A stretch of 64,000 nt of DNA from positions 23,542,535-23,606,534 of the forward strand of contig OY783203.1 of the NCBI GenBank assembly GCA_963678705.1, in the 5' to 3' direction. Below the pieces are notes generated by a model that ran no database searches, was not told the origin of the DNA, and saw only the letters and a list, made by a program, of their open reading frames with translations. Positions 20,105-50,199 of this stretch are shown here, piece by piece. The translations under genes and the position numbers were made by a program. Positions within the stretch are counted from its first letter, which is position 1; the number at the start of each line of letters is the position of its first letter. The stretch is from Panorpa germanica. Taxonomy: Eukaryota > Arthropoda > Insecta > Mecoptera > Panorpidae.

Positions 20105-21609
20105 ATAGAAAACGAAACAATAAATTAAGGACATAAAATGTCTACTTTATCGACTACAAATGGCGAATTTACTTCACTTGTCGGAATACAAATGAAGATA
20201 AAGTTGATGCGAACTATAATTGGAGTAAAATAGTGATAGAAACGTCACTAAATAGGACACTTCACCTCTCCTGATTTGATCCCTAATCCTAATTTTCTAA
20301 TTAACTGATAATTAATATTAATTGAACGTATATGGCTTTTCTTTTTGGTATGAAGCCAAATTTTATTGTATCCATAATTGATTCTCTGCGAGAAACCTCT
20401 AATTTAAATTCTATTTAAAAGATATTACGCGATTTTTTTTTAAATATAATTCTTTCAACGTAAACACAATTGCATTGTGAATCATATCTTCATTTTTATA
20501 AAACTGACCGCTATATAAATATTACGATTAAAACTTTAAATGTCCAATAATTTTTTACAGGTAACAATAATATGAAATATATTTAGTCATTTTAATAATA
20601 ATAGTCATTTTTATAACTTTCAGTTTCAAAAAAATCAGTAATATCTCGACATCATGCCCGATTCATACCCTCTTCCTTTCAATCAATTGCAATCTCTGTT
20701 ATAAAACAAAATGTGAAAGAGAAAAGAAAAACATCAAAGTGCATCCTCAAACGTGAGATACTAGTTACAACTGTTTCTAGCACCACATAAAGTTTTAATA
20801 CTATAACGGTGCTAAACAAGTACAAATAAAATCAATATCTTATTATTCTACACACTTCAAACATACTATAATATCAAAAATATGGGTAAAAATTAAGTGG
20901 TTAAACAGGATTTCAAATTTTAAATCAACTTTTTGATATCTACAAATATTGAATAACCAGTAGATATATATTTAAAAAAAAATTCAACAGATTCGACCTT
21001 AAAAATGTTGAATTCATTAGATTTATAAATATTTACGTTTGACAGCTGAAAAATGGTGACAAAATTAAAATTGCATTTCTGACTGTAAAATCTATTTTGC
21101 CCCTATTATAGTCATAACGAACATTTAGTTCAAATAAAGCACTATCATGAAGAGTGACTTACTTGTGCGTTTATTCTGCTAGTGGTGGGTAACTAACAAT
21201 GTAATATCACGTAGTATGGAGTAGATACTGCATTTAACACGATGATATTACTTTAAACTTAAATCTCTATTGCAATGCAAATTGTTAAATGTTAGTATAT
21301 TGATGAACCCTATCATGCAGAACCACGTGTTTCTAAGTATCTAAAATCCATTTGTCAAAAATGTCCAAACAGAAAAGTTGTAACCCAATTATACCAAACG
21401 CCGATATACTCGTACCACATGAAATGGTCCCCTTCAGACTATAGAAATTTCTCGGATGTTTCCCTTTTGCCTTATTGAAGTTCAGTATCTACAGTCAGAT
21501 GATGTTATTAGGTTTTGAACGTTTTTTATATTTAAAAAAAATATATATAGTGTGCTAGATAAATGTTAAAGAATTAATGACTTAGATGTAAAACTAACAT
21601 TTAATTTTG
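20105..21609. other. noncoding region upstream of the Fez gene
   Basis: No transposon or gene recognised. It is the likely 5' flank or an intron of the Fez-type gene. A good splice acceptor (TGTTTGTTTCAG) lies at 21628-21639. Confidence 0.4.
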
Positions 21610-22671
21610 ATGACCATTAATGCAAGGTGTTTGTTTCAGAAACGTGCCATGATTGACTTTCCGGAAAATCAAGTGACTGACGTAATACTTCACACAGAAA
21701 AACCAGCAGCGTCCATGCTAAAATTCTCCATAGAAAAAATAATGCAACCTGATCTTAGGCAAAAAGTTTCCTCTTCACAAACATCAGCAGTCATAACAAA
21801 CATAGATTCAGCATTCAAAAAATATGTCCCAATATCCCCATTAAAGCACGAAGTATTGATGCGACCATTGCACCACCATTCGGATCATCCAAGTAAAAGC
21901 AATATATATCCCCTGTCATACATAGAAAAAAACTCAATAAAAAAATCTTCCAAATCAACAATTAGCCCTACTAATGCACAGTTTCAGAACCAAAAAGGAT
22001 TTGCGTGCCCAGAGTGTGGTAAAATTTTCAACGCCCATTACAACCTAACTCGTCACATGCCAGTTCATACCGGTGCTAGACCATTTTTGTGCAAAATCTG
22101 TGGGAAAGGCTTTCGTCAGGCATCAACGCTTTGCCGACACAAGATTATTCACACGGCAGAGAAACCACACAAATGTGTTACCTGTGGGAAAGCGTTTAAC
22201 AGATCCTCTACATTGAACACCCACATGCGAATCCACGCGGGTTATAAGCCCTTCACTTGTGAATATTGTGGAAAAGATTTTCACCAAAAGGGCAACTATA
22301 AAAATCATAAGTTGACTCATAACGGTGAAAAAGCTTTTAAGTGCTCTATTTGTAATAAAGCTTTTCATCAAATTTACAATTTAACATTTCATATGCACAC
22401 GCATAATGATAAAAAACCCTTCACATGTCAAATTTGTAAAAAGGGTTTCTGCAGAAACTTTGATCTTAAAAAACACATGAGGAAGTTACACGAAAATCAA
22501 TTTTTAACAAGATACTCAGCATCATTTTCGGCTCCTAATACGCCACAAATTCCACAGTTGGAGTCTTATTCTGCTATAATTCATCCGTTTTATATACATC
22601 ATACTAACTCACAATTATTTCAAAAAACTAATTTTTCTCATTCTGAATTTAACGCTTTTGCAGGATTATGA
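21610..22671 (+). CDS. erm: Fez-family zinc-finger repressor (earmuff/FEZF)
   Basis: This is a DNA-binding transcription factor. In animals Fez proteins specify forebrain and intermediate neural progenitor fates, recruiting Groucho-type corepressors. Seen here: an eh1 repressor motif, FSIEKIM, at residues 39-45, a polar linker, then six consecutive C2H2 fingers at about residues 131-294. The finger order and content are those of FEZF (finger 1 [14 protein letters not shown], finger 2 [14 protein letters not shown], finger 3 [14 protein letters not shown], finger 4 [13 protein letters not shown], finger 5 [14 protein letters not shown], finger 6 [15 protein letters not shown]). A 60-residue tail follows. 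The first ATG in frame is 21610, but a strong acceptor ends at 21639, so the exon may begin at 21640, with ATG 21649 as the first start or an exon further upstream. The frame is open throughout and looks functional. Confidence 0.93.
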
Positions 22672-23246: not shown

Positions 23247-23765
23247 TATGACCGGAGTTATAAACTTAAAACTAGCAGGGGTATAAAACTTAATTGAATT
23301 CTACATTTTAGAGTCTGCAAAATATAAATATTTAAATGAAGAAATAAATAGATGTAATCTTTAGTACGGATCGTGATTTTTTTAATGAATATTATTCATC
23401 TTCAACAATACTCGTTATATTAGTTTTTTACATTGTTTTGGTGATTCAAAAATCCACGATCGGCAGGTCTGCGTTAGGTTTAAAACCTCTGTCTTAGCAT
23501 CGTATAAGTCATAAACTTTACACTAGCAAGGAAGGCAGGGGTATAAAACTTAATGGAATTTTACTTTTTAAAATCTGCAAAATATAAATATTTAAATGAA
23601 GAAATAAATAGATGTAATCTTTAGTACGGATCGTGATTTTTTTAATGAATATTATTCATCTTCAACAATACTCGTTATATTAGTTTTTTACATTGTTTTG
23701 GTGATTCAAAAATCCACGATCGGCAGGTCTGCGTTAGGTTTAAAACCTCTGTCTTACCATCGCTA
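23247..23765. repeat. 260-bp tandem duplication
   Basis: Two adjacent copies are offset by 260 bp. For example, AATATAAATATTTAAATGAA begins at 23321 and 23581. From there to the CCTCTGTCTTA box the copies are almost identical, differing mainly near the left edge, where copy 2 has a short insertion (AAGGAAGGC). No coding content. The high identity points to a recent tandem duplication. Confidence 0.9.
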
Positions 23766-26412: not shown

Positions 26413-27449
26413 GTACAGAAAGTGTAATTCGCGGGACTTCAGTACGCGAATTTACTTGTTTCAATGTGATTTCTCAAATTTCCTAGTATTAGATATATTA
26501 AAATAAGCGAAGGCCATTATTTAAGTTAGCAAGTGGCCACCCCTAGCTACTGGCATTTTGAACTCGGCCTAATCTTAAAACATACATGCGTCGATGAGCT
26601 GGCCTCACTATTTACTAATAGAGTAAATTACACCCTCACAACATTTTGAGAATCAACATATGGGGTTTTTGAGTATAGAACACAGAGATGGCTATATAGC
26701 ATCTCTAGCTTGCTTACTCAGATTAATTAGGAACGATTTATGATGCCAATTTAGATTTTAGCGTGAGTCTAATTTTGTTCATGAATCAAAATACATCTTA
26801 AAGCTTGTCGATTATCAGGTTCCGAATTCCTGATCGACGCACGACTTCACAACACATTTTAATTGCTAATTGACATTCCAATACTGCGATTTTCCGTTAA
26901 ACCAATAATTCTGATTCTCCGTCATATATGTGTAATTAAGTTATTTGAGTGATTGACTTATACTGAGTGTAAATATCAGATAAATATTTTGGTGAAATAG
27001 ATCGCTAGCCGCACGTTTGGTTCCAACGTGTGATTCAAATATTGGAAGATTGACATGGCAAGTTTCGTAGTACACGGTGGATTGAATGTATAATCCGAAT
27101 GATATTTTATTAATTTGTTGATATTATTGAAACTAATAAATAAACTTTCAAGTATACATCCTTCCATTGTTGGACGTTCGTGCACAAGTGCATGACATAT
27201 GGATCAAGTGTGTGGTGGGGTAGAAAAATTCCTTTTGACGCGGTCAACCCGAGTCGAAATTTTATACCTATCCTGATTCTAAGATGGATATTTGCACTTC
27301 TTTCATCCTAAAAACAGTAAAGTGAACCTCATCTCATCCTAAACGTTATTATATGACCCTCGCCTGATCCTAAATAAAATCATGATCCGCGTCTTATTTT
27401 AACACAAACTCTGTGAACTTCATTTGAACCCCATAGACCGGGCGCTGGC
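26413..27449. other. noncoding stretch left of the long-inverted-repeat element
   Basis: No gene supported. About 27224-27290 repeats the short motif block seen inverted at 9755-9815. The minus frame 26976-27185 has no recognisable similarity. Confidence 0.35.
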
Positions 27450-27511
27450 GGTAAGTGAGTATGCATAATATGAGGAACGAATTCTGACAACTTATATGAG
27501 TTCTAGCTGTC
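27450..27511 (+). repeat. outer part of the left inverted arm
   Basis: Matches the reverse complement of about 30671-30732 with only a few differences, including GAGGAACGAATTCTGACAAC. It ends at the TTA where the Harbinger element is inserted. Confidence 0.85.
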
Positions 27512-27861
27512 TTATGCCGGTTTTACACCAGATAGACAGTTGCATAAAACTGCAACAAAATGATGTTTTTTTTAAAAGTTGCATCACTGTTTACACCAAC
27601 TAGACAGTTTTTGCAACTTTTTTGTCATTTATTGCAGTTGTTTGCAACGTTCACATGTAAACAATAACAGATATACGCGGAATGCAGTTGTTTATGTTAT
27701 GTCCGAGAACACGCGTATCAAGATATGCGACTTCGAGTAAACAGCTTCGTTATCAAAATGTCTTGATATTTCTACAGGGATGCGCAACCTTTTCTGCAAA
27801 TTCCAGTTATTATTTTATAACCATAATTTTTGTATGTTCAGACGCCCGCAAATCCGTAACA

Positions 27862-27926
<65 letters not shown>

Positions 27927-28902
27927 TGTGTGTGTGATATATAAGTACTACTAAATATTTACCCAAATGGCATTTGATCGTTATAATTTTGTTATAACAA
28001 GTGGTATTTGTCATTCAACCGTAAAAAATATAGTAATATCAATTTTATTGGTCTTACCTTGATATAATCTTGAAGAATGTCATACAGGGCCTCACATACC
28101 TCCGGTACTATTCCAGATACTGAAGAAGTTGAAACTTTGCATAAATATTTTAATGTTTGATAACTGTCCCCAGTGGCTAAGTATCTCAAAGTTAATGCAA
28201 GACGTTCCTTCACCGAAATTGCATTTCTGTAATTTGTATTTTTTTTTGCAATTTTTGGTCCGACTAAATTTATTAATATTTCAAAATCAGAACTTGATAT
28301 TCTGGTGAAGTTGTGAAATGAGGATCGTAATTCTCCATTTAATCCAACATCGTCATTATTTAAATCAAGTAATAACTTTTCAGTCTCATAATCAAATCTC
28401 CTTTTTAGTAAAGAGCTCACCCAATATCTGCGTTTTTTTCTTGATATATCGTTTATTAAAAAAATCCACTTTCAATTATAAAATTTTCGTCGTCGGACAT
28501 TGTGCCTGCTAGCCAAATGATAAACAACAACTGACAAGCGAAAATATTCACAAATACCAAACTGCGTGTTCAAACCAAGAAGAATAAAGCAACGCAACCG
28601 TGTTTCTTTTGATCTTTACCGACTCGAGATGGGACTCTGTTGTGTTGCAAACAACTGCAATAAATGACAAAAAGTTGCAAAAACTGTCTAGTTGGTGTAA
28701 ACAGTGATGCAACTTTAAAAAAAAACATCTTTTTGTTGCAGTTTAATGCAACTGTCTATCTGGTGTGAAACCGGTATTATGGGTCTGTTCCATGCAAATA
28801 GTCTGTTGCCGTGCAACGTGCAAAAGTGCAACTCGTTGTGTTGCACCACATTGCAACGTTGCATAAAACTGCAACTGTCTATTTGGTGTGAAACCGGCAT
28901 TA
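27512..28902 (-). mobile_element. PIF/Harbinger element A, with TTA target duplication
   Basis: The element spans 27515-28899 and is flanked by TTA at 27512-27514 and 28900-28902. The terminal inverted repeats start TGCCGGTTTTACACCAGATA (left) and, complemented, TGCCGGTTTCACACCAAATA (right), continuing GACAGTTGCA. The right side holds a second, internal copy of the terminus (about 28760-28775, complement GGTTTCACACCAGATAGACA). It encodes a truncated transposase on the minus strand. The uninterrupted right arm of the host element shows the pre-insertion sequence at this TTA. Confidence 0.93.
27992..28500 (-). pseudogene. HARBI1-like transposase, N-terminal exon only
   Basis: The minus strand starts with ATG at 28500 (MSDDENFI). 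A frameshift follows, then a frame with LLKRRFDYETEKLLLDL, FTRISSSDFEILINLVGPKI, YRNAISVKERLALTLRYLAT and GIVPEVCEALYDILQDYIK. These are the DNA-binding and pre-catalytic segments of Harbinger nucleases (HARBI1 family). Just after DYIK the sequence is AAG|GTAAGA, a good splice donor at 28057, so the ancestral gene had an intron there. The downstream catalytic DDE exon is missing from the element. Non-autonomous. Confidence 0.85.
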
Positions 28903-29167
28903 TATAACAATAATATAAATGTTGCCAGTTGAAATTTTACCGCACTTTTTTTTATCCTCCATGTAAATATTACTATGATAAATCCTATATCAGTGCCTGT
29001 AAAGCGTTGAAATTTAACTTTTTAGGAGTACTAATTAGGTTTAAGGGATAAAGTATTGTAAAAAATAAGTATTAATTTAAATAATATACAATAATAATGC
29101 AAAAAAGTTTATTTGCTATAAAAAAACAATCGAAAATGTTGATTTTGTTAACTACCAGACAAATGTT
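28900..29167 (+). repeat. inner part of the left inverted arm
   Basis: Continues the arm after the Harbinger insertion: TATAACAATAATATAAATGTTGCC and onward match the reverse complement of about 30671 down to 30405 at high identity, including a TTTAGGAGTACTAATTAGGT block. Confidence 0.85.
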
Positions 29168-30300
29168 ACTGTACTTTCATTTCATGAACTACACTAACTA
29201 TGTCCGGGGTGTCACATTTTACCTACAAGACATACTTAATTTACCCGGGGAAGTTGTAAATGAATTAAAAAGAGGTGCTTTCTGTAAAGCGAGTAAAGGG
29301 AAAACTTAATTGAGTGGCTTATGACTTAGCGTTAGAGCAATCACAAAATTGATCATCTGCAATGACTGGAAGCTTGATAGGTATAACGCTATAGGTTACT
29401 TTTGTATCCATTGTAAAATGCAATGCACTCTGCTATGTTGTGATACCTTAAAATAAACCCTTAAATTGATTCGAATTTTCATTTTTCATAGCGAATGGAG
29501 TAAAAATTGAATTCAAAAGATGAGCAGGATATTAAAATACATCCACAAAAGATTGCAATGTTTTAAGGGTTAACGAGGAATGTGGTCATTTAGAAGCAGA
29601 CGCAAGAATGTTTTCAAATATATTTCATGCGACAAAAACCAAAGTACTGAAATCATAATTAACGCTCCTATACCGACGTTTTAGTCCTTGGGATTTATTT
29701 TTGGCCTAAGCTTAGAAATATTTGGTAAAGGGTTCACATAAAAAAACACGCCCTTGGTTGTCATTTGGTAGCCGAATCCGTTGGTATAGATTCTGCAGTG
29801 CTTTGGCAGCATTTCATGTTTTAACCAGTTGCGATAAGAAAAATTGCTTGAAAGCTAAATCACTTGATTTTATCCAGAAAGAACTTTCATCCTTTGGCAA
29901 TGAATTTTTAGATCTTGAAAGATTCAAATGAGGTCTTACCTCATACCTCTTAATGTGCACTTACCTATTTAACAATCTAAAACTGACAGCGGATGAGCTT
30001 ATAAGCTCATATGTATCTATAGATACAAACAAATATTTAAAAATATTGGGTTTGGCTTAAATTTACTTCAAATTATATGCACTTCTAATGCACTATATTT
30101 GCATTTTCTGAGGGATTCAGCTCACACGTATATTTGGAGAAAAATCTACAGAACCCCTGATAGTACCTTGATTTTAGTAAATATGAGTATGAACTAAAGG
30201 GTTCTTGCTTGTACCCCAAACAAATAACTAAAGCACCTCTGCCGGAATCCTTAATCAATCCTTGTAAATACAAGACAGATTGTCATACCAAGTAATTGCA
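29097..30300 (+). pseudogene. decayed repeat-associated protein, possibly PIN/FEN-like
   Basis: Frames in order, all on the + strand. First, NYVRGVTFYLQDILNLPGEV and KRGAFCKASKGKT (29097-29310), followed in another frame by a DLALEQSQN and TGSLIGIT stretch. Next, CGHLEADARM (about 29583), a II-INAP stretch and, if one missing base is allowed for, a TDVLVLG block (about 29665-29690). Then CSALAAFHVLTSCDKKNCLK (29790-29850), and finally a SAHTYIWRK and APLPESLINPCKY tail (30115-30270). I recognise this series (Y-x-R, LP, LALEQ, GG-IG-T, HxEADxR, DTDVLVL, H-x-LTGCD) from uncharacterised, repeat-associated animal proteins. The EAD and DTD acidic pairs recall XPG/FEN-type PIN nucleases, which is my inference. 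Stops and shifts show it is dead. Confidence 0.6.
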
Positions 30301-30404
30301 AAAAATTGAATATAAATTGTGTTTCATTGTGTAAATGTATAGTACATAATTGGAAAAATGTTTAAATGAAACTAAATGTTTAGGCAACATATTTTTTTTG
30401 TGAC

Positions 30405-30732
30405 ATGTTTCTAGTTGTTATCAAAATCAACGTTTTTGATTATATTTTTTTTTATAGACAATGAACTTCTTTGCATTATTATTGTATATTATTTAACTTA
30501 ATACTTATTTTTTACAATATTTTATCCCTTAAACCTAATTAGTACTCCTAAAAAGTTAATTCTAACGCTTTACAGGCACTGATATAGGATTTCTCATAGT
30601 AATTTTTACATGGAGGATAAAAAAAGTGCGCTAAATTTCAACTGGCAACATTCATATTATTGTTATATAAGGCAGCTAGAACTCATATCAGTTGTCAGAA
30701 TTCGTTCCTCATATTATGCATACTCACTTACC
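30405..30732 (-). repeat. right inverted arm, uninterrupted
   Basis: Reverse complement of the left arm. It retains the continuous sequence GCTGCCTTATATAACAATAA (complement), i.e. the unoccupied TTA site corresponding to the Harbinger insertion point in the left arm. Confidence 0.85.
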
Positions 30733-31145
30733 TTCACGCCTGCACTACCAAATGGTCAAAAGGAATGTTGTGATATATTTTTATACCTGCTTATGGCTGT
30801 ACGACATGGATTTTATTGTTAGGGATGAATATGAAATAATGAGTTAGAGAGAGAGAGATAGATAGATGCACGTGATTATATTAGTCGTTTATAGTATTTC
30901 ACTTCACTTTGTATTTAGATTTCGTTGAATAAAGATATAACTTTTGAGTGTAAATAATAAATAAATGACATTAAATTAAATCAATATTTTACTTCACCTA
31001 ACTAACTTTTGTAATAGCAAAATTATAAAACAAACCAGTAAATGAAAGTAGTTGCGAAAATTGTAGAAATCGATGGTAAGTACAAATCGTGTTTAATTGA
31101 ATTTCTCTTTCTTTTTATATCATGAATATTTTTTTTAATCAAGTT
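30733..31145. other. noncoding stretch
   Basis: No gene recognised. A short GAGAGAGAGATAGATAGAT run lies at about 30845-30866. Confidence 0.4.
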
Positions 31146-33637: not shown

Positions 33638-33755
33638 TAATGCCGGTTTTACACCAGATAGACAGTTGCATAAAACTGCAACAAAATGATGTTTTTTTTA
33701 AAAGTTGCATCACTGTTTACACCAACTTGCACACATTGCAACGAAACCGGCATAA
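33638..33755. mobile_element. Harbinger MITE B (112 bp), with TAA target duplication
   Basis: The element spans 33641-33752 between TAA copies at 33638-33640 and 33753-33755. The left end, TGCCGGTTTTACACCAGATA, is the same as element A. The right end closes with AACGAAACCGGCA. Internal sequence matches the first 85 bp of element A and then jumps to the terminus, so it is a deletion derivative. Confidence 0.9.
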
Positions 33756-34581: not shown

Positions 34582-37649
<3,068 letters not shown>

Positions 37650-48420: not shown

Positions 48421-49291
48421 AATATATTGAAGGGGAAAGTAATTAAATATGTATTAATTAAAAATAAAAAGTTTTACAAAATCAGTCTCGTTTAAAAATA
48501 GACATACCTCGTATATTTTAAAAAGAGTTTCTGGTTATCAATTCTTGATCAATTGTTTCTTAAATTTTGCATTATTTATATCGGTATGCATCGGACTGTG
48601 TTTAGTTGTGGCCCTGAATTGAAATATTAAATTTCAAATTGAATTTTATTTTTTAAAAATATGTTGTGTGTTGTTGCAAAATAAATATAATCTTTTAATT
48701 TGATTATTTTCAATTAAAAAGAAATTTTTCCTTTTAAAGAAAAAGTGCATAATAGAGGAAACAATTTTCTTAATAAAAAATGTTCAGGAATGAAAAAATA
48801 ATAAATATACTTTTTAACGTGGAAATGTTTTAGAATTTGATTAAATGAGAGAGCCGTGTCTTAATTTATATAAAACTGTGCAATACTCGGATAATTAAGA
48901 CAACTTCAGCGCGTAATGTTAATGAGTTAATGTAGTTTTTTTTAATATATTTTCGTTATTAATATATCAATCTATATCTGTATTCTAAATTTCAACTTTG
49001 TATTTATATTTTAGCATTAGTGCTCCCTACATACCTCCGGCACTGAACTGAATTTGTCAAATTTTAGGCACGAGCATCTATTTTGTTTGTATACAAGAAC
49101 ATATATACTAAATTATACCCTTTCATCTGTGTATATTCGATATTCGCCGATCAACTTTTTCTCGAGATGTTTGAATTTTTATTTCAATTTAACTTCAGTT
49201 CACGATGTCATTTCTTCTTACCTTCTCATACCAATTTTTACAATAATTGTTAAACAAAAGAAGTGAAGAAGATGACACAAGAGATGCAGTA
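48421..49291. other. AT-rich noncoding stretch with repeat trace
   Basis: About 49005-49070 (TTAGCATTAGTGCTCCCTAC) resembles 9425-9480 and may be related to repeat family C. No gene recognised. Confidence 0.35.
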
Positions 49292-50199
49292 TTATGCCGG
49301 TTTCACACCAAATAGACAGTTGCAGTTTTATGCAACGTTGCAATGTGGTGCAACACAACGAGTTGCACTTTTGCACGTTGCACGGCAACAGACTATTTGC
49401 ATGGAACAGACCCATAATAACGCTTTCACACCAAATAGACAGTTGCATAAAACTGCAACAAAAACTGGTTTTTTTTAAAAGTTGCATCACTGTTTACACC
49501 AACTAGACAGGTTTTGCAACTTCCTGGTCCTGGGATCTTGGACTATCATAAATAAAACAGTTTATTGTATTTTTTATATTAAATTTAATTAATAATATTA
49601 ATAGAGAAAAAAATAAAATAATAAATGGGACAAAAATAAAAAGTTATTACAATAACAAATTAAAAATAAATAAATAATATAATATAAGTCCTTTGCTTGC
49701 ATAATACTCCAAATCTGAAAATAAGAATTAAGTTAATACTAGATAAGTACTTGATATAAGGAATTATAGTTATGGCACCTACATATTTGGAATAGATTTT
49801 ATCTGTATACATACCGTGCTTATATATTATTAACTGCTTTGTTAATATTAAAATGCAAATCGGAAGAAGATTAATTGAAACGTATGTTTATAAAAATGTA
49901 TCAAAATAAATCACAAACAATTAAATACACAGACTGTACAAATATACTTCAGAGAAATACTCATGTTTGGATAGAAAGAGATAAAAGTATATTCATTTCA
50001 TGTTTCTCCCCTCTCTTGTATCGAATGTAACCGAGTTTCTTTCATCTTTACACTTTACCGACTCCGTGTTGTGTTGCAAAGAACTGCAATAAATGACAAA
50101 AACGTGTCTAGTTGGTGTAAACAGTGATGCAACTTTTAAAAAAAACCAGTTTTTGTTGCAGTTTTATGCAACTGTCTATCTGGTGTAAAACCGGCATTA
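49292..50199. mobile_element. Harbinger element C (902 bp), with TTA target duplication
   Basis: The element spans 49295-50196, flanked by TTA at 49292-49294 and 50197-50199. Ends are TGCCGGTTTCACACCAAATA and, complemented, TGCCGGTTTTACACCAGATA. A second internal copy of the terminus (GCTTTCACACCAAATAGACA, about 49420) follows the left end, mirroring element A's right side, of which 49295-49506 is the reverse complement. No transposase remains; the interior is AT-rich. Confidence 0.92.

Follow-up and report, generated by a model that had tools for sequence, protein, structure and literature searches.

The window, by which we mean the whole 64,000-nucleotide stretch of Panorpa germanica DNA analyzed here, carries between positions 27434 and 30747 what is likely a decayed, internally deleted cut-and-paste DNA transposon, with AcademX, a lineage within the Academ superfamily, as the best candidate. 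A sequence-only reading of the same DNA had proposed an undescribed mobile system. We set that proposal aside because the longer relatives described below combine a probable DDE-type core with a nuclease and make 3-bp target duplications, a plan that fits AcademX; the window copy probably belongs to a known kind of transposon, in decayed form and with internal deletions.

Ends, arms, and genomic copies of the window element

The inverted ends of the element are ∼350 bp long and both begin with TAG. The outer boundaries were placed by comparison with other genomic copies, and the TAG termini of the window element, of the C16 element (a nuclease-bearing element on contig C16 with ends similar to those of the window element), and of the relative L002 were set by eye with other copies already seen. 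The left inverted repeat lies on the plus strand in two pieces, an outer one at 27434-27514 that begins TAGACCGGGCG and an inner one at 28900-29169, and the right inverted repeat occupies 30400-30747 and begins TAGTGCAGGCG on the minus strand. The arms pair as 27450-27515 plus 28897-29169 against 30400-30732, with 97% identity over 66 bp (E 6.7e-27) and 89.5% over 277 bp (E 3.6e-101), and the arm-to-arm alignment contains 307 identical positions, 21 mismatches, and 12 gap positions. The inverted arms that had been described as enclosing coding remains are thus real, with the left arm split and the true ends lying further out. Flank comparison places the trinucleotide CCA on both sides, at 27431-27433 and 30748-30750, as a 3-bp target duplication.

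A nested element on the minus strand (27515-28899) with inverted ends TGCCGGTTT interrupts the left arm and is flanked by a TTA duplication at 27512-27514 and 28900-28902; the right arm still shows the uninterrupted insertion site. Its open reading frame (27992-28471, minus strand) has a weak Pfam match to HTH_Tnp_4 that falls below the cut-off (E 0.00014, 21.8 bits, cut-off 27) and no DDE match in the same search, and we call the element PIF/Harbinger-like on the strength of this weak match. PIF/Harbinger elements have inverted ends, a 3-bp TWA duplication, and a protein with HTH and DDE parts, and the nested element resembles them in the first two respects. A partial second terminal repeat at 28858-28903 (46 bp, 85%) means that its right end is doubled. 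Three other places in the window (33638-33727, 49291-49522, and 50029-50199) match the ends of the nested element at 82-100% identity and are probably short non-autonomous relatives of it. Elsewhere, the window contains a 260-bp unit repeated head-to-tail at 23275-23762 (1.9 copies, 97%) and long open frames at 21598-22671 and 36189-36683, which may represent a Fezf-like zinc-finger gene of the C2H2 type and an IMP dehydrogenase exon, respectively.

We searched the genome (464 Mb in 249 contigs) with a query consisting of the left arm and about 150 bp in addition. With 40 of 111 candidates scored, the search gave at least 46 matches that merge to at least 35 loci; this and the other genome match counts given here are lower bounds. 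Ten inverted pairs occur among the 35 loci, five of which enclose nuclease coding and five of which are 372-884 bp long. Eight of the 35 loci, including that of the window, have a coding match no more than 3 kb away. This count and that of the pairs with nuclease coding come from a comparison of all 46 arm rows with 23 of 132 coding rows chosen by eye; the 132 rows stem from a search with the C16 nuclease, which gave at least that many matches in the genome. Seven other copies were fetched and compared directly; nuclease remains are present in five (L005, L006, L008, L009, and L010) and absent from L004 and L007. Altogether, nine arm loci, the window and L005 among them, have the same coding beside or between the arms. 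The arms recur genome-wide together with this coding, and the earlier proposal that they are the ends of a transposon tied to the protein therefore stands. Two window-family copies, L058 (C3:13358520) and L059 (C21:23759630), share their left flank and differ in the right one, and they therefore cannot be counted as independent sites.

Coding remains and fuller relatives

Between the arms, the window retains the ordered motif series NYVR, LP, LALEQ, SLIGIT, HLEADAR, YTDVLVLG, FHVLTSCD, and a Pro/Cys-rich tail, much as the sequence-only reading had listed it, distributed over three frames that are broken by frameshifts and stops. We take this series to be one known from unannotated animal proteins. 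All three coding pieces lie on the plus strand. The first (29139-29391), which overlaps the inner edge of the left arm, corresponds to residues 729-817 of the L001 protein described below, the C-terminal part of its probable DDE-type core, and bears NYVR, LP, LALEQ, and SLIGIT. The second (29554-29973) is decayed XPG/FEN-like nuclease coding in several frames, with HLEADAR, YTDVLVLG, and SCD, and the third (30024-30362) is the decayed C-terminal Pro/Cys-rich tail, also in several frames. In a frameshift-tolerant alignment with the L001 protein, 29170-30420 scores 170, where 100 tiles from elsewhere in the window average 40.3 (SD 4.35, maximum 55), and 29139-29391 scores 72 against a mean of 35.5 for 264 tiles (SD 4.5, maximum 61). 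These scores lie far above chance and indicate that the window coding is homologous to L001. A tblastn search of the window with L001 recovers the HLEADAR stretch alone (E 0.43), a closer relative from the P. germanica genome matches the window at E 2.1e-10 and 1.0e-16 (eight sequences searched), and the genome-wide search with the C16 nuclease matches it at E 7.8e-9. Pfam gave no match of note for the protein pieces of the window.

Decay and deletion are visible in these remains. The first piece retains the D and the E of DLALEQ, which are invariant across four aligned members, and the window copy is without the stretch that bears the other conserved D of the core. The nuclease retains the last three of five acidic motifs, with YTD in place of the DTD of its relatives, and copies of the window family have a common gap directly after the GCD stretch.

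Relatives were sought in prokaryote assemblies with a consensus of the motif series as bait. Two were found. L001, in a Planctomycetota bin, is a 1466-residue open frame that runs off the contig start, and L002, in an assembly of a Bathymodiolus (mussel) symbiont, is a broken copy that has the nuclease and tail alone between inverted ends of its own. Both are taken to be host contamination, and no relative was found in viral, phage, and plasmid collections. The L001 query, run on the genome of P. germanica, led to a 2.2-kb family with ends TAGCCCGG. Thirteen of its 15 fetched copies have both inverted repeats (about 340 bp), and L033 and L040 have the right one alone. These copies encode the nuclease and tail without the core, and their open reading frames begin at varied points along one longer protein. 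A copy of about 6.4 kb on contig C8 (the C8 copy) has ends that match those of the 2.2-kb elements. Its coding begins with an N-terminal part in which Cys/His pairs occur, followed by the core (FDQPLY, LGAFHLLMSFLG, and IEQ), the nuclease, and the tail. It carries stops and frameshifts, and hence no intact full-length copy of the C8 family was found. The core, nuclease-like part, and tail lie in a single coding region in both L001 and C8; in L001, the core corresponds to residues of about 490-860 and the nuclease to about 985-1320.

Other copies fill in this picture. In L014 an element end adjoins the core, and L024 is a further deletion copy that keeps part of the core. A member of a second family adjoins the 2.2-kb element of L034; this member has arms of about 750 bp (96%) with TAA on both sides and all five nuclease motifs in a broken frame, and it gave no match to the C8 core. 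The 797-residue open frame of L012 (C8:229554-233921) has a core 26% identical to that of the C8 family and, as judged by this comparison, represents a third, distant core lineage. Contig C3 carries several near-identical 2.2-kb elements inside a stretch of 150 kb (about 13.38-13.52 Mb); L041 and L042, which are among them, share flanks, which makes local duplication likely.

An alignment of four core-bearing members shows a conserved D, GxFH, and D...EQ, a pattern that suggests to us a probable DDE-type transposase. Neither PDB nor Pfam linked the core significantly to a named transposase family: a PDB profile search gave nothing relevant, and Pfam returned for the core-bearing members DUF6589 alone, below the cut-off in two of them (E 0.003 and 0.00087). 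No Pfam model covers the transposon protein, and the Pfam matches of L001 include no helicase. In the literature search, DUF6589 went unmentioned, and a query combining Academ and XPG gave nothing on the present transposon.

The nuclease part shows five acidic motifs (D, D, E-x-E/D, DxD, and GxD) in FEN order in four members, at intervals of 40-44, 75-105, 24-26, and 54-59; the corresponding intervals in archaeal FEN-1 are 53, 73-74, 21, and 61. Comparison with XPG proteins by hhalign was marginal (P 0.54, 0.13, and 0.073 in three runs), with 3 of 60 column shuffles scoring as high in the P 0.13 run and 1 of 100 in the P 0.073 run. A PDB search with a seven-row alignment returned three matches at E up to 10, all of them to Exonuclease 1 (best E 0.042), and PDB searches with three- or five-row alignments returned no XPG match. 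Of the XPG/FEN-type PIN nuclease suggested earlier, then, the motif order and spacing hold, and they make the part appear XPG/FEN-like, whereas the profile statistics remain marginal. The transposon protein shares with the XPG/FEN/EXO1 nucleases five acidic stretches in the same order at similar spacing; it differs from them in that the nuclease lies within a transposon protein with a Cys-rich tail and in the marginal profile similarity. In one member, the tail itself weakly matches Tesmin/CXC (E 0.12).

Target duplications and assignment to a lineage

Of 19 copies drawn from several families, 15 have identical 3-bp flanks, the CCA of the window among them, and none has identical 4-bp flanks. 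When flanks were shuffled 100,000 times, a mean of 2.8 identical 3-bp pairs was obtained, and no shuffle reached 15. The four copies without a 3-bp duplication are L035, L043, C8, and L007, and two of three further copies also have identical 3-bp flanks. Within the 2.2-kb family, the flanks are identical in 11 of 13 two-ended copies (10 of 12 without L042); L033 and L040, which have no left end nearby, were excluded from this count. TAG termini are present in every family examined, L002 included, with one copy excepted; L008, a window-family copy, has TTTAC in place of TAG.

The AcademX nuclease is of the XPG type and is located after the DDE core. The fit with AcademX rests on this plan, as the longer relatives place a DDE-type core ahead of a nuclease, and on the 3-bp duplications; the assignment was made by description. 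As described in a 2023 paper (PMC10045372), AcademX encodes a nuclease, unlike AcademH, and makes duplications of 3 or 4 bp, the sister lineage AcademH has a helicase and duplications of 9 or 10 bp, and duplication length is related to which of the two enzymes an Academ lineage encodes. Compared by such described features, the present elements are like AcademX in having a nuclease beside the transposase and a short duplication (3 bp here) and differ from AcademH with its helicase and longer duplications. They differ from AcademX in that many copies keep the nuclease without the core. Curated Academ elements of bivalves, in which the superfamily is abundant, average 5565 bp (PMC10294476), to which the C8 copy, at about 6.4 kb, is comparable; Academ elements are also described as abundant in a whitefly (PMC9143410). 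KolobokP likewise pairs a DDE transposase with a nuclease, though one of the His-Me finger type (PMC9587614), whereas the motif order here is that of XPG/FEN. The failure of named transposases to match the core significantly, and of any Pfam model to cover the protein, would also be expected of a DDE-plus-nuclease transposon of a still unnamed superfamily that resembles AcademX in its working. We consider this unlikely, given that the protein plan and the 3-bp duplication fit AcademX.

In the AcademX assignment that we prefer, the DDE-type core would bind the long repeats, excise the element, and insert it with a 3-bp stagger, and the XPG/FEN-like nuclease may trim branched intermediates. Deleted copies, that of the window included, would have been moved in trans by the protein of fuller relatives and then have decayed. 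For the window copy, the order of events would be movement, loss of function, insertion of the Harbinger-like element, and decay.

Copy numbers, selection, and nuclease-only elements

The TAGCCCGG repeat gave 980 candidates, of which the 40 scored are 96-100% identical. Nuclease coding lies within 3 kb of 33 of these 40 repeats (six also have a scrap of the core), a core scrap alone near two, and neither near five, as counted from all 40 repeat rows together with 50 of 121 nuclease rows and 20 of 45 core rows. Of the 121 rows for the 2.2-kb nuclease open reading frame (121 of 603 candidates scored), 27 span all 333 residues with an identity of 97% or higher, and 23 of the 27 are stop-free. The nuclease of a second family, whose protein is about 41% identical to that of the 2.2-kb family, gave 163 matches with 150 of 401 candidates scored; at least 35 rows among the matches listed cover its 240-residue query fully at 92% or more, and 28 are stop-free. 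For the C8 core, all 53 candidates were scored and 45 matches resulted; four of these matches extend over 300 or more of the 359 residues with an identity of 91% or higher. Among the matches listed, nuclease-bearing copies thus far outnumber core-bearing ones in several diverged families; the searches that began from nuclease-bearing copies favor such copies.

Purifying selection on the 2.2-kb nuclease-only open reading frame is not supported. Relative to the majority sequence, 14 copies show 11 synonymous, 50 non-synonymous, and 3 stop changes, with a dN/dS of 1.26, or 0.98 when each change is counted once; L042 was left out of this set because of the flanks it has in common with L041. The changes look neutral, and the open frames can be explained by youth. 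These results bear on the proposal that the nuclease-only elements are independent transposons with the XPG-like nuclease as the mobilizing enzyme. The excess of nuclease-bearing over core-bearing copies among the matches listed is in its favor, as is the ∼750-bp-arm family, which has every nuclease motif and gave no match when compared with the C8 core. We nevertheless regard it as very improbable, since core-bearing and nuclease-only copies have common ends, the reading frames of the 2.2-kb family start at varied points along one longer protein as internal deletions would make them, and dN/dS in that family is near 1. An origin of the arms by local inverted duplication, or from an unrelated inverted-repeat element around a host gene fragment, has nothing in its favor beyond the single window copy taken on its own and is vanishingly unlikely, as the genome searches rule out a local duplication, with the arms at no fewer than 35 loci and the same coding in most of the other fetched copies, and the same protein lies inside different ends in other families and in L002.

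A further reading of the nuclease-only copies may be put forward, although we think it quite unlikely to be correct: "half-transposons" that lack the DDE-type core and keep the XPG-type nuclease might be the successful unit in P. germanica, having arisen several times. Its cases would be the C16 family, the 2.2-kb TAGCCCGG family, the ∼750-bp-arm family, and L002, some of which would have multiplied recently with the gene open. Academ elements in which many copies have the nuclease without the core are not known to have been reported. If the nuclease favors its own copy and the core is supplied by rare fuller copies, labor would be divided between the halves of a transposon, and, to our knowledge, no such division is known.

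These findings tie a motif series of unannotated animal proteins to a transposon with defined ends and a target duplication, so that such genes could be recognized as transposons. The near-identical recent copies would allow direct tests of transposition and of the role of the nuclease.
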